Source: Rufibacter sp. XAAS-G3-1
GTDB taxonomy: Bacteria > Bacteroidota > Bacteroidia > Cytophagales > Hymenobacteraceae
DNA: 64,000 nucleotides
Direction of reading: 5' to 3'
NCBI RefSeq assembly: GCF_013623775.1
Contig: NZ_JABFAM010000005.1
Coordinates: 1 to 64,000 of the forward strand
Position 1 is the stretch's first letter. The number at the start of each line of letters is the position of its first letter. Below are positions 50,613 through 59,053 of this stretch, piece after piece. Both the position numbers and the translations under genes were made by a program. A model generated the notes under the pieces. The model saw only the letters and a list, made by a program, of their open reading frames with translations. It searched no databases and had not been told where the DNA came from.

Positions 50613-52037
50613 TTACTCTTCCTCCCGAAGCGGCACCAACCAGCGAGAGGAGGTATGCGGCCGCCACGGAACGGCCGCCAGGTTCACCGTAGAATCTACC
50701 AGCAGCTGAAAAGGGCGTTTGTTGAGGCTAACGTTGGTATGCGCAAACACCTTTACCTCTGCGTACCCAAGCTTTTGGTAGTGACGGGCCAGAAACTGGC
50801 TATATTGCCAGATCAGGTCGGGGCGGGTGGCCACGGTACTGGTTTGTTTGGGGGTAAGGTGTTTTTCGGGGTACTCCCAGAAGACTTTGCCATCGGCTAT
50901 TACCTTGTATTTCGCATATCCGCTTTTGGAGCGCAACATCATGTGCCAAGACATACGGTGGCCCTCTTCCGTCCAGTTGGTGTTCCCCGGAAACCACCAT
51001 TGCCGCATGGGCAGCGCCACCTGCAAGATGAAATGTAGGGCTAAGAGCGAAAACAGTAGTTTTTCTCCCGTGCGCAAAGCCGGGGCAGGAGCCTGGGGTA
51101 CTGCAAGGGGAGGTTTCCTGCGCAACAGCGTTCTTCTAATGGTTTCGGGCGGAAAAAAGAACACGCACAGCGCCAGCGCCAGATACGGGAAAATGCCAAT
51201 GTGGAACACCGCCGAGTTAAACCCATGGAAGAAAATAGCCAGCAGAAACGCCCACCTTCTGGTTCTGCGCCACAGCAGCAGCGGAACAATGAAGAGATCA
51301 AAGAAGATACCGCCGTACACCACCAGCTTCTGAAACCAGGCCTGCTGCAGGAGTTCTCCAATCAGATAAAAATGACGCTTCGCCGAAAACCAAATGCTGA
51401 CCGGAGTGCCCGCGAGCCAATCGGGGTTTAGCTTGGCAATGGCGGCGTAGGTATAGACAATCCCCATCTGGGCCACAAAGAGGAGCAGGCACCAACGCGG
51501 GCAGCTTAAAGACCGCAGAGCCGGGTTGCGTTTGGCATCAAGGGAGGCGTAGGCGTGCGCGGGCACCAGCAGCATCAGGAAACAGAGTACCAGCAGCAGG
51601 TAGTAGTGGTTGTTGTAGCTGGACTTCTGCATGAGGTACGCGCCCCACCACAAGAACGTAAAGGCGGTAATGCTGGCCCGGTAATGCCAGCCCACCATCA
51701 CCAGCAACCCCAGAAACGCCATGGCCCCGTAATAGAAATACATACCGTTGCCCGGCAACGGCCTCAGCCACTCAAACCCGATGAAGGGAAAGAACACGGT
51801 GGGGTCTATCATGTTCTTCTTCACCCAACCCGTGGCAATGGCCCCCGCCGTTTCCAGAAACAAGAGCAGCCCGAACCCCCACCGGAACACAACCAACGGC
51901 GCGTTGTCTACGGGCTGGCGCAGCCACGTCAAAAAAGAAGGTTTCACACCTAAAGCAGTAGGAACGGAGTGCATCTGGAAGAACATTGTAATCATCCGGT
52001 TCTCATTGTACGTACTTCTGAAAGAACGATTCAGCAA
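50613..52037 (-). CDS. HTTM-domain membrane protein (vitamin-K carboxylase-like)
   Basis: A 474-aa multi-pass membrane protein of the HTTM family, related to vitamin-K-dependent gamma-carboxylase. The opening R-Q-P-V-D-N-A-P-L-V-V-F-R-W-G-F-G (about 41-57) and the membrane core with Y-N-N-H-Y-Y-L, Y-T-Y-A-A-I-A-K-L-N-P-D-W-L and F-F-D-L-F-I-V-P-L-L-L-W are characteristic. A soluble C-terminal domain (about 360-474) follows. The first 28 residues may be over-long, since ATGs at about residues 15 and 22 are alternatives. The reaction of bacterial members is mostly unknown. Confidence 0.9.
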   Translation of the reverse strand: MLNRSFRSTYNENRMITMFFQMHSVPTALGVKPSFLTWLRQPVDNAPLVVFRWGFGLLLFLETAGAIATGWVKKNMIDPTVFFPFIGFEWLRPLPGNGMYFYYGAMAFLGLLVMVGWHYRASITAFTFLWWGAYLMQKSSYNNHYYLLLVLCFLMLLVPAHAYASLDAKRNPALRSLSCPRWCLLLFVAQMGIVYTYAAIAKLNPDWLAGTPVSIWFSAKRHFYLIGELLQQAWFQKLVVYGGIFFDLFIVPLLLWRRTRRWAFLLAIFFHGFNSAVFHIGIFPYLALALCVFFFPPETIRRTLLRRKPPLAVPQAPAPALRTGEKLLFSLLALHFILQVALPMRQWWFPGNTNWTEEGHRMSWHMMLRSKSGYAKYKVIADGKVFWEYPEKHLTPKQTSTVATRPDLIWQYSQFLARHYQKLGYAEVKVFAHTNVSLNKRPFQLLVDSTVNLAAVPWRPHTSSRWLVPLREEE

Positions 52038-52471: not shown

Positions 52472-52639
52472 GTAGCGTCGTTACCCTGTAACGACGTGGT
52501 TCTATGAAACGACCATGTTTCAACCACACACAAGAACCGTTCTTTGCAACAGAAATCCTTTTTGCCCGGGAGAAAAGCCTTTTCGGCCGGAGACATTTCT
52601 GTTTCATGGAGACACGTCGTTACAGGGTAACGACGCTAC
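52472..52639. mobile_element. 168-bp TIR-bounded non-coding element
   Basis: Perfect 27-bp terminal inverted repeats (52472-52498 and 52613-52639) begin GTAGCGTCGTTACCCTGTAA. A diverged relative lies at 535-605. No transposase is encoded. Confidence 0.75.
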
Positions 52640-52642
52640 AGA

Positions 52643-52684
52643 CCTGTTTTGGGCCTGTTTTTTGAAAAAGAGGCCCAAAACAGG
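52643..52684. repeat. small dispersed palindrome
   Basis: CCTGTTTTGGGCCTGTTTTT / GAGGCCCAAAACAGG with near-perfect arms, directly past the stop of the type IIG C-terminal fragment. Confidence 0.75.
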
Positions 52685-52694
52685 AACGCCACGG

Positions 52695-53018
52695 CTAGGC
52701 TTCTACCAAGGCGATTTCCTCGGGCGTGAGGGCGTAGAGTTGGTACACCAGTTGGTTTATCTCTCGGTCTGTCTGGGCCAGTTGCGTGGTGATCTGCTGC
52801 GCCAGCTGCTGCTGCGCCGTGAAGAACGCCAGCCAGTCTGACTTCTGCGCCAGCGTGAGCTTTACCTTGCATTTGCCCAACTCTTGGCTGAAGGCCTCCC
52901 AAGAGAGGGTGTACCATTTCTCCAGCTTCTGGCTCAGTTTGCCCACGCCCAACTCTGACTGCAACAGCGTCAAGAACTTCTGGCTGAGCGCCTGCAACTC
53001 CTGGTTCTTCTGCATCAT
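52695..53018 (-). pseudogene. C-terminal fragment of a type IIG restriction-modification gene
   Basis: A 107-aa coiled protein (M-M-Q-K-N-Q-E-L-Q-A-L-S-Q-K-F...) ending L-T-P-E-E-I-A-L-V-E-A. The C-terminal block I-N-Q-L-V-Y-Q-L-Y-A-L-T-P-E-E-I is the standard tail of large Eco57I-like type IIG enzymes. The helical stretch before it (L-G-V-G-K-L-S-Q-K-L-E-K-W-Y) matches their C-terminal helices. It has normal, GC-richer base composition, but an in-frame TAG lies just upstream and sequence abruptly turns AT-rich at about 53020. The matching N-terminal part is at 55862-55071 on the same strand. I infer a broken gene; a free-standing small gene is less likely. Confidence 0.7.
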
Positions 53019-53083
53019 GATTTTCTACGGATTTGTAAAGCTAAATTGTAAAATAGAAAATTTATAGGATTGCTAATCTGTTC

Positions 53084-53114
53084 TTGTACAAGAGAACGTA
53101 TAACTCTATATTTG
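53084..53114 (+). promoter_or_regulatory. promoter of the methyltransferase remnant
   Basis: TTG (53084-53086) and TATATTTG (53107-53114) are separated by 20 bp, a textbook Bacteroidota -33/-7 arrangement, and the ATG follows 17 bp later. This is the best promoter match in the window. Confidence 0.65.
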
Positions 53115-53131
53115 AAAAAGCCTTTGATTTA

Positions 53132-53287
53132 ATGGAAAGAATAAAATTTATTGACCTGTTTTGCGGTATAGGCGGTTTTCGTGTGGCAATGGATGAAGCT
53201 TGTCAAGAAAATGACCTTATACCTACTTGTGTTTTTTCATCAGATATAGATACATTTTGTCAAGATAGTATATTATCAATTTACTAA
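53132..53287 (+). pseudogene. truncated DNA (cytosine-5)-methyltransferase
   Basis: Only the first 51 residues of a C5-cytosine methyltransferase. M-E-R-I-K-F-I-D-L-F-C-G-I-G-G-F-R contains motif I (F-x-G-x-G-G, residues 10-15) and the S-S-D-I-D segment (about 38-42) is motif II. The reading frame then ends after T-F-C-Q-D-S-I-L-S-I-Y. Family members are 300-450 aa, so the catalytic P-C motif, target-recognition domain and later motifs are gone. The sequence after the stop shows no further methyltransferase motifs, which points to a deletion rather than a simple frameshift. The gene is AT-rich and behind a good promoter. Confidence 0.8.
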
Positions 53288-53341
53288 ATAAAAGAAGCAT
53301 ATTAATATCAAAAAAATTACAGTTCTTCCATAGAGATTATT

Positions 53342-54088
53342 ATGTCCAGCACTTTATCAACTAGAGACAAATCAATCCTAATTGGGCTATATTTATCTAA
53401 ATTTGATGAAGAGGCAATAAAAGCATTTGATTTTAAAGGCTTCAATGAAGCTTTCAATGCTCTAGGCTATTCAATAGGCGCAAGACCAGCTTCTATAAAG
53501 AATTATCGTGATGAGTTTGACCCTCTTTTCCCTAACCCAAGAAAAGGATGGCACAAAAGACCATTAAGAGAATATTGTAGAGTTTTTTATGACAATTTCT
53601 CTGCTTTGGATTTTTATTCATTTACAGAATTGGTAAAGAGTTTTGTATTTAGCAATTACGAGATTGATAAAATAATTGAAAGAATAGAAAAGAAGGATAG
53701 AAGCGAAAGCGTAGCCAAAAGATTAATAACAGGAAGAGCTGCAGAGGAGTACTTTAAAACTAAATTTAATTCAGTTGATAGTTTTAAAGGCTTCAACTTA
53801 ACTGATACAACTGTCATGGCTTGCGGTTTCGATTTTAAATTGTCCTTGAATGAAAATTTTTATTGCGTTGAAGTTAAAGGGTTAAGTACAAGTTCTGGTA
53901 ATATTTCATTAACAGAAAAAGAGTTTCATGTAGCAACTGAACTCAAACACCAGTTTTGTCTTTTCATAGCTATGAATTTCAGCGAAAAACCTTTCCATGA
54001 AACAATCTTCGACCCTGTAAATAGCAGATTGAAATTTAAGAAGATTGAGAGGCAAATTACTCAAGTAAATTACTCTTCTGTGGTATGA
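53342..54088 (+). CDS. DUF3883 (NOV_C) nuclease-like protein
   Basis: A 248-aa soluble protein in the AT-rich island. The C-terminal half matches DUF3883, a PD-(D/E)xK-like fold found with restriction systems: G-R-A-A-E-E-Y-F (about 131-138), C-G-F-D-F-K-L (161-167, Asp164), the core C-V-E-V-K-G (175-180, Glu177 and Lys179), then I-S-L-T-E-K-E-F (188-195) as in family members. The N-terminal half (1-120) is helical, with a S-I-G-A-R-P-A-S-I-K-N-Y-R-D-E-F-D block that may bind DNA. Catalytic residues look intact, so it may be active. It overlaps the next small gene by 4 nt. Confidence 0.75.
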   Translation: MSSTLSTRDKSILIGLYLSKFDEEAIKAFDFKGFNEAFNALGYSIGARPASIKNYRDEFDPLFPNPRKGWHKRPLREYCRVFYDNFSALDFYSFTELVKSFVFSNYEIDKIIERIEKKDRSESVAKRLITGRAAEEYFKTKFNSVDSFKGFNLTDTTVMACGFDFKLSLNENFYCVEVKGLSTSSGNISLTEKEFHVATELKHQFCLFIAMNFSEKPFHETIFDPVNSRLKFKKIERQITQVNYSSVV

Positions 54089-54306
54089 ATAGAAATTGGG
54101 AATGTTATTTATGTGGAATTGAAAACGGCTTTAATAATTTACCGCACGGATATTTAGCCAACTATCATCCTCTTTGCATTAATTGTGCCGATAGGATTTT
54201 GAATGATAGAAATCATAAGCGGAGGAACCAAATTTCCTTCCACTCAAGAATTGGTAATTTAGTAGTAATAGGGAATAATATATTTCCGATTACATATATT
54301 AATTAA
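54085..54306 (+). CDS. four-cysteine zinc-binding mini-protein
   Basis: A 73-aa protein starting in the stop codon of the DUF3883 gene (ATGA overlap), so the two are probably co-translated. C-Y-L-C (residues 7-10) and C-I-N-C (about 32-35), with a His between, form a likely zinc site of the HNH-associated or rubredoxin-like kind. The last 35 residues are basic then hydrophobic (H-K-R-R-N-Q... L-V-V-I-G-N-N). It lacks the D-H-N catalytic residues of an HNH nuclease as far as I can tell. Function unknown. Confidence 0.55.
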   Translation: MNRNWECYLCGIENGFNNLPHGYLANYHPLCINCADRILNDRNHKRRNQISFHSRIGNLVVIGNNIFPITYIN

Positions 54307-54413
54307 TAATAGCTGTATCAATTGTATAAATTTAATCTCCAAAGCTTAGAACTGTAAATAAGTCAGTAGCACCTTATCCGCTTAATGAATTCCCCGCTGA
54401 CTTTCCTTTTATC

Positions 54414-55070
54414 TTGGCGCGTGAAATAGTTTATTTACTTGCTTTCAAAGGAAAAGGCGCATTGGAAGGCGACGAGTGGGAAGAAATTTTCGCTAAATGT
54501 ATTGGAGCAGATTGGAAACCGTCCAATGTGGGATTAGATGATGTAATCCTTGGCAATACGGCATGGGGAGCAAAAACAGTAAAAGCGACCAAGCCCTCAT
54601 CACAGAAAAAGCTAAGACTGATTTCAGGCCGTAATTCACCGAATTATTCCTTTGGTGAGCAGAATGTTTCTGGTGCAGACCCTACTTTTATTGGTGGCTT
54701 AGTCCTTAACATCTGGAACGAGCGAGTATCTTCTATAAGGGAAAAGTTCAAGCATCTTAGGACGGTAGTTCTGGTAAAATCTAGTGATTTGTCAGAAGTC
54801 GTAGTTTTTGAGTTTGAAACTATCCGTTATGACTTGGAACTCTTCAGGTGGGAATGGAATAAAAATAACAATCTTGTGGGTTACGACAAGTCAACAGGAG
54901 AACACAGGTTCACTTGGCAACCACATGGCTCCCAATTCACGATTATAGAAGATGTGCCAAAACATAGTTTGCTTATTAAAATAAAGCAGCCGCCGAAATT
55001 AGACCAGCAAACGATTCTTGATACTCTTGGATTTGACAAGTCTTGGGTAACAGTTATAAAGAATAGCTAA
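54414..55070 (+). CDS. putative type II restriction endonuclease, start codon lost
   Basis: A 218-aa frame from a TTG codon. The block G-D-E-W-E-E-I-F-A-K-C-I-G-A-D-W-K-P-S-N-V-G-L-D-D-V-I-L-G-N (19-48) followed by T-A-W-G-A-K-T-V-K (about 49-57) looks like a PD-(D/E)xK core (Asp42/Asp43, Lys54). The rest is W/F-rich with W-Q-P-H-G-S-Q-F-T-I near the end. The same frame stays open upstream to 54336 and reads K-S-V-A-P-Y-P-L-N-E-F-P-A-D-F-P-F-I-L without an ATG or GTG, so the true N-terminus seems to be lost. A possible partner is the truncated C5-methyltransferase upstream. Family assignment is from memory of similar sequences. Confidence 0.55.
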   Translation: MAREIVYLLAFKGKGALEGDEWEEIFAKCIGADWKPSNVGLDDVILGNTAWGAKTVKATKPSSQKKLRLISGRNSPNYSFGEQNVSGADPTFIGGLVLNIWNERVSSIREKFKHLRTVVLVKSSDLSEVVVFEFETIRYDLELFRWEWNKNNNLVGYDKSTGEHRFTWQPHGSQFTIIEDVPKHSLLIKIKQPPKLDQQTILDTLGFDKSWVTVIKNS

Positions 55071-55862
55071 GCCCTTCACCCGTTCATAGATTTTAGTCTC
55101 CTGCCGGTTGAAGCGGTCTTCTTTCACGGTCTTGAGCAAACCCCGGAACGTGTACGGCGGAATAATGGTCAAATCTTCACAGAAGCACACAAATACCACG
55201 CGATCCAGCAGTTTCTGGGTTTTCTGGAAGATGACCAGCTCCGGCACGTGGGGGTTCTGGCCCCGCAGGTGCTCAAACAGGTGCAGCCGAGAGGTCTTGT
55301 AGTCTTGGTAGAAGTCTTTGGTGATGTTCTGCTCTTCGGCTTGCCGCTCCCTGAAGAGTTGTTCTGTGGTGGCCTCTCCGTGTTCCAGCAGCAGCCGGTC
55401 TTTGTGCAGCAGAAACAGAAAACGCAGCAGCTCTTTCTCTTCGTGCAGGTGCATCACGTCAAAGCGTTCATAGCGGCTCTGGTCTGAGTGATGGTACAGG
55501 CGTATCTCCAGAAAATTACTTACCAAGACCCATTTGCAGTTACCGCCAGCCTTGGGCACGTAACTGAAGGCCTGCTCTACGGGGCTGCGCTTGTCATTGA
55601 GGCGGTTCTGCGGTTTGTCTAAATCTGAACGCGCGTCAGGGCTGTACACGTAATCCAGCACCTCACCAAAAAACGTGTTCAGAAACTCGCTCTGCAGCTC
55701 TTCTTCTTTCTGCTTTACAATTTTGCCACTCTTTATGCCCACCTGCCATTTCTGAATAAGATCCAGCTTGTGCGCCAAGTCTGGGAACTGGCTCAGTTGA
55801 AAGTTGCGAGTTTTGGTATCCAAGTATTTTCTGGAGAAGATGGGGGTATAAAGTTCAGCCAT
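55071..55862 (-). pseudogene. N-terminal fragment of a type IIG restriction-modification gene
   Basis: The frame runs on to 54999, but the last 24 residues are antisense to the endonuclease gene and are not homologous. The product opens M-A-E-L-Y-T-P-I-F-S-R-K-Y-L-D-T-K-T-R-N-F-Q-L-S-Q-F-P-D-L. S-G-K-I-V-K-Q-K-E-E-E-L-Q-S-E-F-L-N-T-F-F-G follows, as in Eco57I-like type IIG proteins, then D-L-D-K-P-Q-N-R-x-N-D-K-R-S-P-V-E-Q-A-F and L-H-L-F-E-H-L-R. In relatives I recall a catalytic E-L-K-D-A-R segment just before D-L-D-K-P-Q-N; here F-G-E-V-L-D-Y-V-Y joins directly to S-P-D-A-R-S-D-L-D-K, so the nuclease centre may also be deleted. Methylase domain absent. Confidence 0.72.
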
Positions 55863-56023: not shown

Positions 56024-57400
56024 CTACCGGATAGGTTTTGGCATCACGGGCAAGCTTTCGTGGCCTTCCGCGTCCACCGCCTGTACGGCGAAGAAGTAGT
56101 TGTCTTTAGAGTAGGGCAGGGTGGTGGTGGTGCCTTCCACGTAGATTTTCTTTTCCCACATGGGCATGGAAGTTTCCCGCATGAGCACGTAGTAACCCGC
56201 TGGTCTCTCTCCTTTAACAGGGGCCTTCCAGCGGAGTTCAGTCTGATTGGTGAGGTTGCTGGTGACTACGCCTACTTCTTCCGGTGAATAGGGAGCCAAG
56301 GCCAGGTTAGCCAGGGTGGCCAGGTTCATGGCGGTGTTTTTGCGCACGTACTCAAAGTCTACGTGCTCTGGGAAATCGCCGTAGGCGATGCCGTTCTCGG
56401 TGCGTACGTTCTGGTGCTGGTACTGGTAGTTCTCGTTCATCTCACACACGCGTATGGCGGTAAAACCGGCCTGGCTGAAGGGCGTGTGGTCGCCACCGCG
56501 CAGGAAACGGTCTGTGCGGTAGTTGAGCACCACTTCCAGTTGGGGCACGTAGCGGGCGGTCATTTCTTTCATGTAGCGGGCCAGTTGGCGGCTGCGGCTG
56601 TCGTTCTCGCCGCCAGTGCTTTTGCGCAGGGCCGTCATCTCGGGGGTTTCCAGGGCGGGTACGCCTTCAGAGAAAATCCGCACGCGGGTATTGTCTCTAA
56701 GATTGGTCTCGTCTGAGAAGGAGTTGCCAATCATGTCATTGTTGAGCATGGCCACCAGGTTCCAGTTCTCTTTCTTGGCGCGGTCGGCCAGGTGCTTGGC
56801 TCCGTAGAGGCCCTGCTCTTCGCCCTGCACGCACACAAAGATGATGGTGGCCGGAAACTGCTGTTTGGCCATGACACGGGCCAGTTCTATGACGGCGGCG
56901 GTGCCAGAACCGTCATCATTGGCGCCGGGGGCTTTGCCTTTGGCATCCATCACATCGGTGTTGCGGGAGTCTATGTGGCCGCTCACAATGAACACGCGGT
57001 CATCATTGGGGTCAGTGCCTTTGAGGGTGGCCATGACGTTGGCGAACTCGGTGTCCTGCGGAATGCGGCGGCCATCAGCTTTTACAGTGTATTTGTCCTG
57101 GGTGACGGTCATGCGCCCGCCTGAGGTAGCGGCGGCTTTCTGCAGTTCGGCCTCGGCCCAGTTGCGGGCGGCCCCTATGCCTTTTTTCTTGTCTTTGACC
57201 GTGCTGAGCGAGTGGCGCGTCTCAAAGCTGACCAGGCCGCGCACCAGCCGTTCTAACTCCTGAGCAGATACTTGTTCCGTCAAGGTTTTGATGGTGGGGT
57301 CTTGCTTGACAATGTCTTGGGCCGAGGTAAGGTTTGAAAGGGAAAGCAAACCCAACGCAGCGGCACCGGCGCGGGCGAAGGTAGAAACGGGGTAAAACAT
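56024..57400 (-). CDS. secreted M28-family zinc metallopeptidase with fibronectin-like tail
   Basis: A 458-aa exported aminopeptidase-type enzyme. A signal peptide (about 1-28, ending L-T-S-A-Q) is followed by the M28 domain. The zinc ligands are visible: His in S-G-H-I-D-S-R, Asp in G-A-N-D-D-G-S-G, Glu-Glu in Q-G-E-E-Q-G-L-Y-G, Asp in N-N-D-M-I-G-N, and His in R-G-G-D-H-T-P-F-S. The C-terminal 100 residues (after Y-S-P-E-E-V-G-V-V-T-S) look like a fibronectin type III domain. It is transcribed alone and followed by a strong terminator. A peptide-scavenging role is inferred. Confidence 0.92.
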   Translation of the reverse strand: MFYPVSTFARAGAAALGLLSLSNLTSAQDIVKQDPTIKTLTEQVSAQELERLVRGLVSFETRHSLSTVKDKKKGIGAARNWAEAELQKAAATSGGRMTVTQDKYTVKADGRRIPQDTEFANVMATLKGTDPNDDRVFIVSGHIDSRNTDVMDAKGKAPGANDDGSGTAAVIELARVMAKQQFPATIIFVCVQGEEQGLYGAKHLADRAKKENWNLVAMLNNDMIGNSFSDETNLRDNTRVRIFSEGVPALETPEMTALRKSTGGENDSRSRQLARYMKEMTARYVPQLEVVLNYRTDRFLRGGDHTPFSQAGFTAIRVCEMNENYQYQHQNVRTENGIAYGDFPEHVDFEYVRKNTAMNLATLANLALAPYSPEEVGVVTSNLTNQTELRWKAPVKGERPAGYYVLMRETSMPMWEKKIYVEGTTTTLPYSKDNYFFAVQAVDAEGHESLPVMPKPIR

Positions 57401-57491
57401 ACGTACGTAACGGCTTGGTTGAGTAATCTGATCTGTAATTTCAAGATTATTCCGCAGAAACCAATAGCTGGAAGGCGGCGGGCCCAGAAAA

Positions 57492-57531
57492 AGCGTTTTT
57501 GGGCTGTTTTAAGAAAACAGAGCAGAAAACG
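57492..57531. repeat. small dispersed palindrome
   Basis: AGCGTTTTTGGGCTGTTTT / GAAAACAGAGCAGAAAACG, imperfect; it lies in the leader of the dehydrogenase gene. Confidence 0.6.
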
Positions 57532-57628
57532 GGGTGGGCAGAAATGTTCTCCGTGGAACATTTTAAAAGGCAAGCAACGTGAGGCGGGGTTAGTACGTTT
57601 TAACCTACAATCACCAACTGCAGAAACT

Positions 57629-59053
57629 ATGAGCCAAGCCATGACACCCGGCAGAGAATTTCTGGACAGCGTCCATTATTACTTTGACCAGGCAGCCCAA
57701 CATTCCAAACTCCACCCCGGTATTATTGCGCAGATCAAGATCTGCAACAGTGTGTACAAGGTGAATTTCCCGGTAGAGGTAGACGGCCAGATACAGGTGT
57801 TTGAGGGAATACGGGCCCAGCACAGCCAACATAAATTGCCCACCAAGGGCGGAATCAGGTACAGCATGCAGGTAGACGAAGACGAGGTGGTGGCCCTGGC
57901 CAGCCTCATGACCTTCAAATGCGCCGTGGTAGACGTACCGTTTGGGGGCGCCAAGGGCGGCGTGAAAATCAACCCCAGAACGTCCTCGGTTGAAACTTTG
58001 GAACGGGTGACCCGCCGGTTTGCCTCAGAGCTCATCAAGAAAAACCTCATCGGCCCGGCCGTAGACGTGCCCGCCCCAGATTACGGAACCAGCGGCCGCG
58101 AGATGGCCTGGATTGCCGATACCTACCACGCTTTCAAGTTTGGCGAAACCAACGCCTTGGGCTGCGTAACCGGGAAGCCGGTAGGCCAGGGCGGTATCAG
58201 GGGCCGGAACGAAGCCACCGGTTTGGGTATTTACTTCGGGCTGCGCGAGGCCCTGCATGACGAGGCGGTGCTCAAGCCGTTGAACCTTTCCAGCGGGGTG
58301 ACCGGTAAACGGATCATCATTCAGGGAATTGGAAACGTGGGCTACAACGCCGGCAAGTTCCTGCAACAAGACGGCGCCATCATCATTGGCGTGGCTGAGC
58401 GTGAAGGCGGTATCTACAACCCAGACGGCCTAGACATTGACAACATCTTCCATTACCGGAAACAGAATTCGAGCTTCCAGGGGCACCCCGGCGGCACGTT
58501 CATTGAAAATTCCGTTGAAATGCTGGAGTACGACTGCGATGTGCTGTTGCCGGCGGCCCTGGAAAACCAGATCCATATCGGCAACGCCGAGCGTATCAAA
58601 GCCAAGATCATTGCCGAAGGGGCCAACGGCCCGGTCACCCAGGAGGCCGAGCGCATTCTGCACGCCCGCGGCGTGGTCATTATCCCAGATTTGTACCTGA
58701 ACGCCGGGGGGGTCACCGTGTCCTACTTTGAGTGGCTCAAGAACCTTTCCAACGTGCGGTTCGGCCGCATGGGCAAACGCGCCGAGGAAGCCAGCCTTAA
58801 GCGTCTGGTGAACACCATTGAGAAAACCACCGGCAAAAGCCTTTCTGCGGAAGAAAAGAAACTGATCATTCACGGTGCCGATGAGCGCGACTTGGTGTAT
58901 TCTGGTCTGGAGGACACCATGATTACCGCCTACCAGGAAATGCGCGAGGTCACGCACCAGGTTAAAGCCATTACTGATTTGCGCACCGCCGGTTTCTATG
59001 CCGCTATTGAGAAGATAGGCGTAAGCTACCAGTCATTGGGTATTTTCCCGTGA
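57629..59053 (+). CDS. glutamate dehydrogenase family (Glu/Leu/Phe/Val dehydrogenase)
   Basis: A 474-aa NAD(P)-linked amino-acid dehydrogenase interconverting glutamate and 2-oxoglutarate plus ammonia, or a related amino acid. The substrate-binding region K-G-G-I-R-Y (about 73-78), catalytic K-C-A-V-V-D-V-P-F-G-G-A-K-G-G (about 98-112) and D-V-P-A-P-D-Y-G-T are intact. The dinucleotide fold G-I-G-N-V-G-Y (about 236-242) follows. I choose ATG 57629 (M-S-Q-A-M-T-P-G-R-E-F); the frame stays open upstream, but the extra 70 residues are basic and encoded partly by a palindrome. A terminator follows. Confidence 0.93.
   Translation: MSQAMTPGREFLDSVHYYFDQAAQHSKLHPGIIAQIKICNSVYKVNFPVEVDGQIQVFEGIRAQHSQHKLPTKGGIRYSMQVDEDEVVALASLMTFKCAVVDVPFGGAKGGVKINPRTSSVETLERVTRRFASELIKKNLIGPAVDVPAPDYGTSGREMAWIADTYHAFKFGETNALGCVTGKPVGQGGIRGRNEATGLGIYFGLREALHDEAVLKPLNLSSGVTGKRIIIQGIGNVGYNAGKFLQQDGAIIIGVAEREGGIYNPDGLDIDNIFHYRKQNSSFQGHPGGTFIENSVEMLEYDCDVLLPAALENQIHIGNAERIKAKIIAEGANGPVTQEAERILHARGVVIIPDLYLNAGGVTVSYFEWLKNLSNVRFGRMGKRAEEASLKRLVNTIEKTTGKSLSAEEKKLIIHGADERDLVYSGLEDTMITAYQEMREVTHQVKAITDLRTAGFYAAIEKIGVSYQSLGIFP

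Follow-up and report, generated by a model that had tools for sequence, protein, structure and literature searches.

The stretch of DNA analysed here (the window) comprises 64,000 nucleotides (nt) of Rufibacter sp. XAAS-G3-1, positions 1-64,000 of the forward strand of contig NZ_JABFAM010000005.1 (GCF_013623775.1), and all coordinates refer to it. Between positions 52695 and 55862 the window carries two end fragments of a type IIG restriction-modification (R-M) gene on the minus strand, separated by a cassette of about 2 kb on the plus strand. Inside the cassette, the start of a C5-cytosine methylase gene and the body of an endonuclease gene, called R250, enclose a complete gene of the NOV_C family. 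The locus was judged likely to be a nest of three restriction layers, the type IIG gene being the outermost, followed by the C5 methylase-endonuclease pair and then by NOV_C, in which all known genes but one are broken.

The first layer was defined by comparison with an intact orthologue in a genome of the same genus, G001. The N fragment (55069..55862, minus strand) has 264 codons that represent residues 1-309 of the G001 protein, while the C fragment (52695..53018, minus strand) represents residues 945-1051 of its 1052. Homology to G001 at the DNA level stops at 55069 and at 53019. Both fragments matched one PADLOC model, PDLC03609 (REase_MTase_IIG), the N fragment over profile positions 116-277 of 1066 (E 9.9e-24) and the C fragment over positions 949-1062 (E 1.9e-13). 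BLASTP against the G001 protein gave 488 bits for the N fragment and 164 bits for the C fragment, compared with a maximum of 24.3 bits for 200 shuffled fragments. Identity was 82-90% (in pieces) and 76%, respectively. The G001 frame came from a search of 79 genomes, the source genome included. Three further full-length relatives (1034-1078 aa) also match both fragments in the same order.

The G001 gene is an open frame of 1052 aa (3.16 kb), flanked by the same M28 peptidase and HTTM genes that serve as syntenic anchors in the window (56024..57400 for the peptidase and 50613..52037 for the HTTM/VKGC-like gene, both on the minus strand). Pfam domains were recognized in its product as MmeI_N (53-206), MmeI_hel (259-331), N6_Mtase (467-755), Eco57I (527-673) and TaqI_C (805-927). 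Residues 310-944, 635 in total, are absent from the window, a loss that takes in the whole of both the Eco57I/N6 methylase and the TaqI-like target-recognition region. An earlier note, made from the letters of the window, had described the two fragments as the ends of one type IIG gene without its methylase and target-recognition centre, and had proposed alignment to full-length type IIG proteins and a search for an uninterrupted gene of about 3-3.5 kb in a sister strain. The comparisons above agree with it on each of these points.

The N fragment also carries an in-frame deletion of 135 nt (45 residues) at 55637..55638 (minus strand), between VYSP and DAR, which the earlier note does not mention. 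The deleted stretch contains KADGA..VIELK, which we take to be the D...ExK pair of a PD-(D/E)XK nuclease core. KADGA and VIE(L/I)K were present in the G001 protein (L053) and in the aligned relatives L137 and L138; L136 was not judged, as its frame begins at a later start. Since the deletion is in frame and bounded at both ends by similar short words (GACGC/GAAGC), it may predate the swap. The window copy thus resembles the type IIG enzymes of the MmeI/Eco57I kind (also called IIC) in that both ends fit one model, in order and at an orthologous locus, and differs from them in having no nuclease-type motif, no central N6-adenine methylase and no target recognition domain. The ratio of nonsynonymous to synonymous divergence (dN/dS) from G001 was 0.06 for the N fragment and 0.21 for the C fragment, the neighbouring peptidase gene giving 0.13; these values are rough, with dS ranging from 0.65 to 1.68, and the second method (YN00) returned no value for three of the six genes. 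This suggests that the type IIG gene was kept under selection for most of the divergence between the source genome and G001.

An origin of the two fragments from different families, or a conserved free-standing gene for the 107-aa C piece, was excluded by the shared model, by BLASTP and by a size-limited search, so neither of the outcomes named in the earlier note as possible refutations held. In that search, which covered proteins of 59-187 aa, just six others matched the C piece, at E 9.6e-5 or weaker and over 25-49% of its length. On the other side, three genomes of another genus (G023, G027 and G039) have frames of 82-87 aa that resemble part of the C piece at 34-36% identity, one of them with an internal stop, and matches of 26-51 residues lie inside frames of 177-178 aa in G018 and G035. 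Separately, 79-aa open reading frames (ORFs) resembling the C-terminal piece were observed in another genus (L129:4101-4340 and L131:4139-4378). They adjoin a gene that resembles, by eye, the glutamate dehydrogenase-like gene at 57419-59053 of the window.

The cassette (about 53020..55068, plus strand) measures 2049 bp and replaces a part of the type IIG gene that is 1902 bp long in G001. Its G+C content is 0.343 (34.3%), compared with 0.514 in the N fragment, 0.568 in the C fragment and 0.49 in the window, and the lower-GC island of about 2 kb on the opposite strand reported in the earlier note was thereby recovered. No transposase-like ORF, tRNA or Rfam match was found within the cassette, and its ends at 53020 and 55068 showed no target duplication, terminal or inverted repeats, transposase or integrase of the kind expected from a transposon-like or integron-like insertion. 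A mobile-element origin was not supported by the tRNA, Rfam or repeat searches. Plasmids gave no match as a possible source, and a phage source was represented by a single match of 121 bp at 71% identity in one phage record.

The second layer begins with a C5-cytosine methylase stub that covers the motif I region (53132..53269, plus strand). It consists of 46 codons, ends in ...FCQDS and then departs from its family. Of these residues, 41/46 were identical to the methylase of an intact relative (L087), compared with 15/37, 7/12 and 22/40 for three other C5 methylases; two of the latter values belong to the NOV_C-linked methylases of L119 (15/37) and L122 (7/12), which were on this ground rejected as sources of the stub. 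Upstream lies the word TATATTTG (53107..53114, plus strand), which matches TAnnTTTG, the promoter word of Bacteroidota. The match is weak evidence: two words of this type occur in the cassette, compared with 1.4 expected. A decayed methylase body between 53270 and 54345 was also looked for and rejected, the three frames scoring 31, 31 and 26 while the shuffle means were 34, 32 and 31.

The other end of this layer is the body of R250 (54336..55070, plus strand). Its sequence sets in at codon 5 or 6 (SPKLRT) and closes with a stop codon where the type IIG gene resumes. There is an in-frame TAA at 54333, and the first ATG, GTG or TTG start does not occur before 54414. An alignment of 31 relatives has 60 invariant columns, and the remaining frame agrees with all 60. 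The context of R250 was examined in 39 stretches (27 fetched loci, five further loci of the order and seven viral contigs), corresponding to 38 distinct ones because one of the five is the same record as L098. A C5 methylase was located directly upstream on the same strand in 25/27 fetched loci, the exceptions being L106, with the methylase on the other strand, and L113, which is cut inside the endonuclease. The same arrangement was observed in all five further loci and in five of the seven viral contigs, with the methylase on the other strand in the remaining two. Wherever the junction of the two genes was inspected, the end of the methylase gene either overlaps the R250 start or lies almost against it. 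A Vsr gene is present in 16 of the 27. Compared with type II operons of a C5 methylase and an endonuclease, with or without Vsr, the window thus has no methylase body, no endonuclease start and no Vsr gene.

The R250 family (P0121; L087-L113, L155-L161) is itself widespread and endonuclease-like, with 4056 relatives and occurrences on seven IMG/VR contigs. No match was obtained in Pfam, NCBIfam or PADLOC, and a search with the family alignment detected no protein of solved structure that is related in sequence (best E 0.58). The first structural model was poor, with a predicted local distance difference test (pLDDT) score of 55; after a more diverse alignment, the fold predicted for the representative P0123 reached a pLDDT of 91 and may resemble that of restriction enzymes.

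The innermost layer is a segment of 1066 bp (53270..54335, plus strand) that occupies the place of methylase residues 47-324 and has no trace of a methylase body in three frames. It contains the complete nuclease-like gene NOV_C (PF13020/DUF3883; 53342..54088, plus strand), which encodes 248 aa and scores 37.1 bits in Pfam against a cut-off of 22.1. The family has 2993 relatives; the protein aligned end to end with 15 of them at 61-69% identity, and D164, E177 and K179 are conserved, so that it qualifies as a full-length family member with the D and ExK residues in place. Compared with known NOV_C/DUF3883 proteins, what sets the gene apart is its position between the ends of a C5 methylase-endonuclease operon. 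Its stop is overlapped by a 73-aa ORF with two CxxC pairs (54085..54306, plus strand), for which relatives were found in none of 394 other genomes. A close NOV_C relative with genome context (E 1e-40) was detected in one of 394 other genomes of the class (G737), and distant relatives (E 1e-20) in four of 394 other genomes of the phylum. None was found in the viral contigs and phages scanned, and for NOV_C, too, proteins of solved structure included no relative by sequence (best E 0.53).

According to the earlier note, one defence system had replaced the middle of another. The type IIG centre was indeed replaced, but the island itself turned out to be a two-layer ruin. Since it consists of a C5 methylase stub, a NOV_C gene and an endonuclease without a start, the replacement happened, in effect, twice. 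A single step, in which a complete and still functioning restriction island took over the type IIG centre, would agree with an AT-rich block of four ORFs, two of them nuclease-like; with just 46 codons of methylase left, and with R250 lacking a start and preceded by an in-frame stop, very little probability was assigned to it. The one complete C5 methylase found in the own genome belongs to a different system, being associated with a TdeIII-type endonuclease on contig C19 (L139:2705-5119), which also speaks against a functioning island. A second C5 methylase stub was observed in the same genome (L140:4077-4505, G000:C72 near 148858). It is fused to a helix-turn-helix, and its PF00145 match ends at position 44, close to the point where that of the window stub breaks off.

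The third layer could also have arisen by deletion, if the incoming operon already had the order methylase, NOV_C, 73-aa ORF and R250, and if the 278 C-terminal residues of the methylase were deleted afterwards. Distant NOV_C genes do occur beside or inside C5 methylase genes (L119, L122), one is found in a cluster with a C5 methylase on a Hymenobacter plasmid (L154), and two lie beside a Vsr gene only (L120, L121). Against this, tblastn detected no NOV_C in any of the 39 stretches with R250, where the inspected loci leave the methylase end and the R250 start in contact or nearly so, and the closest relative with genome context (L125 in G737, 59% identical) has no C5 methylase within 14 kb. 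Deletion was therefore considered unlikely, and the absence of NOV_C from the R250 stretches points to the segment standing in place of methylase residues 47-324.

In G406 (L119:5142-7182), the C5 methylase of a methylase-NgoFVII-Vsr operon is interrupted by a NOV_C gene 33% identical to that of the window, with PF00145 positions 1-217 before the NOV_C gene and 263-323 after it. Here too a small Cys-rich ORF comes next to NOV_C, on its downstream side, but it is not the one of the window. NOV_C was within a broken C5 methylase in two of the eight NOV_C loci examined. It is very doubtful, although worth naming, that NOV_C and a small Cys-rich ORF form a unit that lands repeatedly inside C5 methylase genes, silencing the methylase and leaving the neighbouring restriction genes unprotected. 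Should NOV_C cleave methylated DNA, it could become established only where the methylase had been lost. No complete methylase is linked to NOV_C in the window, and the gene is presumably either silent or independent of a linked methylase, DNA cleavage being a prediction for this protein. The 59% identical relative in G737 likewise has none within the 14 kb examined.

The preferred reading of a three-layer nest can be put as a sequence of events. The M28 peptidase and HTTM genes would once have enclosed a type IIG gene of the MmeI/Eco57I type, the state still seen in G001. A short C5 methylase-endonuclease cassette, with one end some 110 bp before the methylase gene and the other at the stop codon of the endonuclease, would then have replaced the central 635 codons of the type IIG gene, probably by non-homologous (illegitimate) recombination after DNA uptake, guided by little or no homology (one or two shared bases). 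This is the simplest route given outer boundaries without target duplication, inverted ends or transposase. In a second, similar swap, the 1.07-kb segment with NOV_C and the 73-aa ORF would have replaced the methylase body, either at the locus or earlier in a donor. The nesting tells which layer is inside which and would fit either setting of the inner swap. An endonuclease deprived of its methylase would be toxic, which fits the lost start codon of R250. As read from the sequence, both methylases are gone, one nuclease-like gene (NOV_C) is intact, and both the type IIG and the C5 systems are probably dead.

Several points weigh against the three-layer reading. No sequenced intermediate has the methylase-endonuclease cassette alone in the type IIG gene, so that the order is not observed directly, and the locus may have received the composite ready-made. 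Immediately upstream of SPKLRT, 15 nt resemble the start region of the family more than expected, with a mean of 7.15/15 matches, a level that 1.4% of control positions reach; the R250 start may thus have decayed by mutation, with the boundary of the third layer slightly upstream. In other genomes, NOV_C relatives occur near C5 methylases and Vsr genes, and such operons may be a familiar setting for NOV_C.

Finally, the nest was read from assembled sequence, and the source assembly is a draft of 73 contigs, in which the assembler might have joined unrelated restriction genes. Such a chimera is scarcely credible here. The contig that carries the locus is listed at 605,317 bases, the type IIG N fragment, NOV_C and R250 have a single match each in the genome, relatives agree on the genes that surround each of the two outer layers, and both ends of each layer share one orientation.

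The place between the two anchor genes was compared in 16 genomes of the genus, the source genome included. The peptidase and HTTM genes were neighbours on one contig in 12 of them; G006, G007, G012 and G013 were left unscored, the HTTM orthologue being absent at this place. The gap between the genes was 118-355 bp in nine of the 12, 3986 bp in the source genome, 3419 bp in G001 and 4158 bp in G003. Nine slots were empty, two were occupied by the type IIG family and one, in G003 (L074:2258-5349), by other ORFs, which according to Pfam are of the phosphodiesterase/sulfatase type (325 aa) and the CotH type (603 aa); neither matched PADLOC. The earlier note had regarded the locus as a hot spot of defence turnover, and this claim was not supported: the slot accepts DNA, with no sign of repeated defence turnover. 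The type IIG N fragment was matched in three of the 16 genomes, one match being a piece of 37 residues elsewhere in G009, within an 84-aa ORF that adjoins a 1263-aa ORF (L134:3930-4184). Peptidase identity to the source was 89% for G001, 91-93% for ten other genomes and 87-89% for four. By this measure G001 is not the nearest relative, so that the type IIG gene must have been either lost several times or gained more than once. Next to the C fragment, at 52600-52691, there are dispersed and partly palindromic repeats with a length of about 30-85 bp. Of 72 matches found in the own genome, 71 are to this stretch only.

Replacement of one R-M system by another is already known. The available part of the report by Kojima and Kobayashi on Campylobacter and Helicobacter describes how parts of one R-M system are replaced by members of another R-M family, including a replacement of the endonuclease gene of a putative Type II system whose methylase gene is disrupted (PMC4615327). 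The swaps described in that part are two-layered, and the nested insertions are integrative and conjugative elements (ICEs) inside an endonuclease gene. The window differs in having three nested layers of restriction genes, the two outer ones without a methylase, and can be seen as a striking new case. R-M insertions with long target duplications were the subject of earlier work cited in the accessible text of PMC2749054. Neither a three-layer restriction nest nor an insertion of DUF3883 into methylases was found in the literature searched, which was covered in part and mostly at the level of titles and abstract beginnings. Type II endonucleases are described as highly toxic when their methylase is missing, and of 272 endonuclease genes that stand alone, 99 are likely to be fragments (PMC3488263). 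Loss of the methylase may be lethal, and where lone endonucleases remain, they may be unexpressed or be served by a methylase encoded elsewhere (PMC4176335).

The locus would represent a readable record of restriction systems replacing and killing one another with no visible mobile-element machinery, with intact relatives of each outer layer and with outer boundaries placed nearly to the base. It provides a testable case of a cell that would have lost a methylase without dying from the partner endonuclease. In addition, it draws attention to R250, a widespread endonuclease-like family whose operon with a C5 methylase is conserved and often includes Vsr, and to the two distant genomes in which a NOV_C gene lies within a broken methylase gene.

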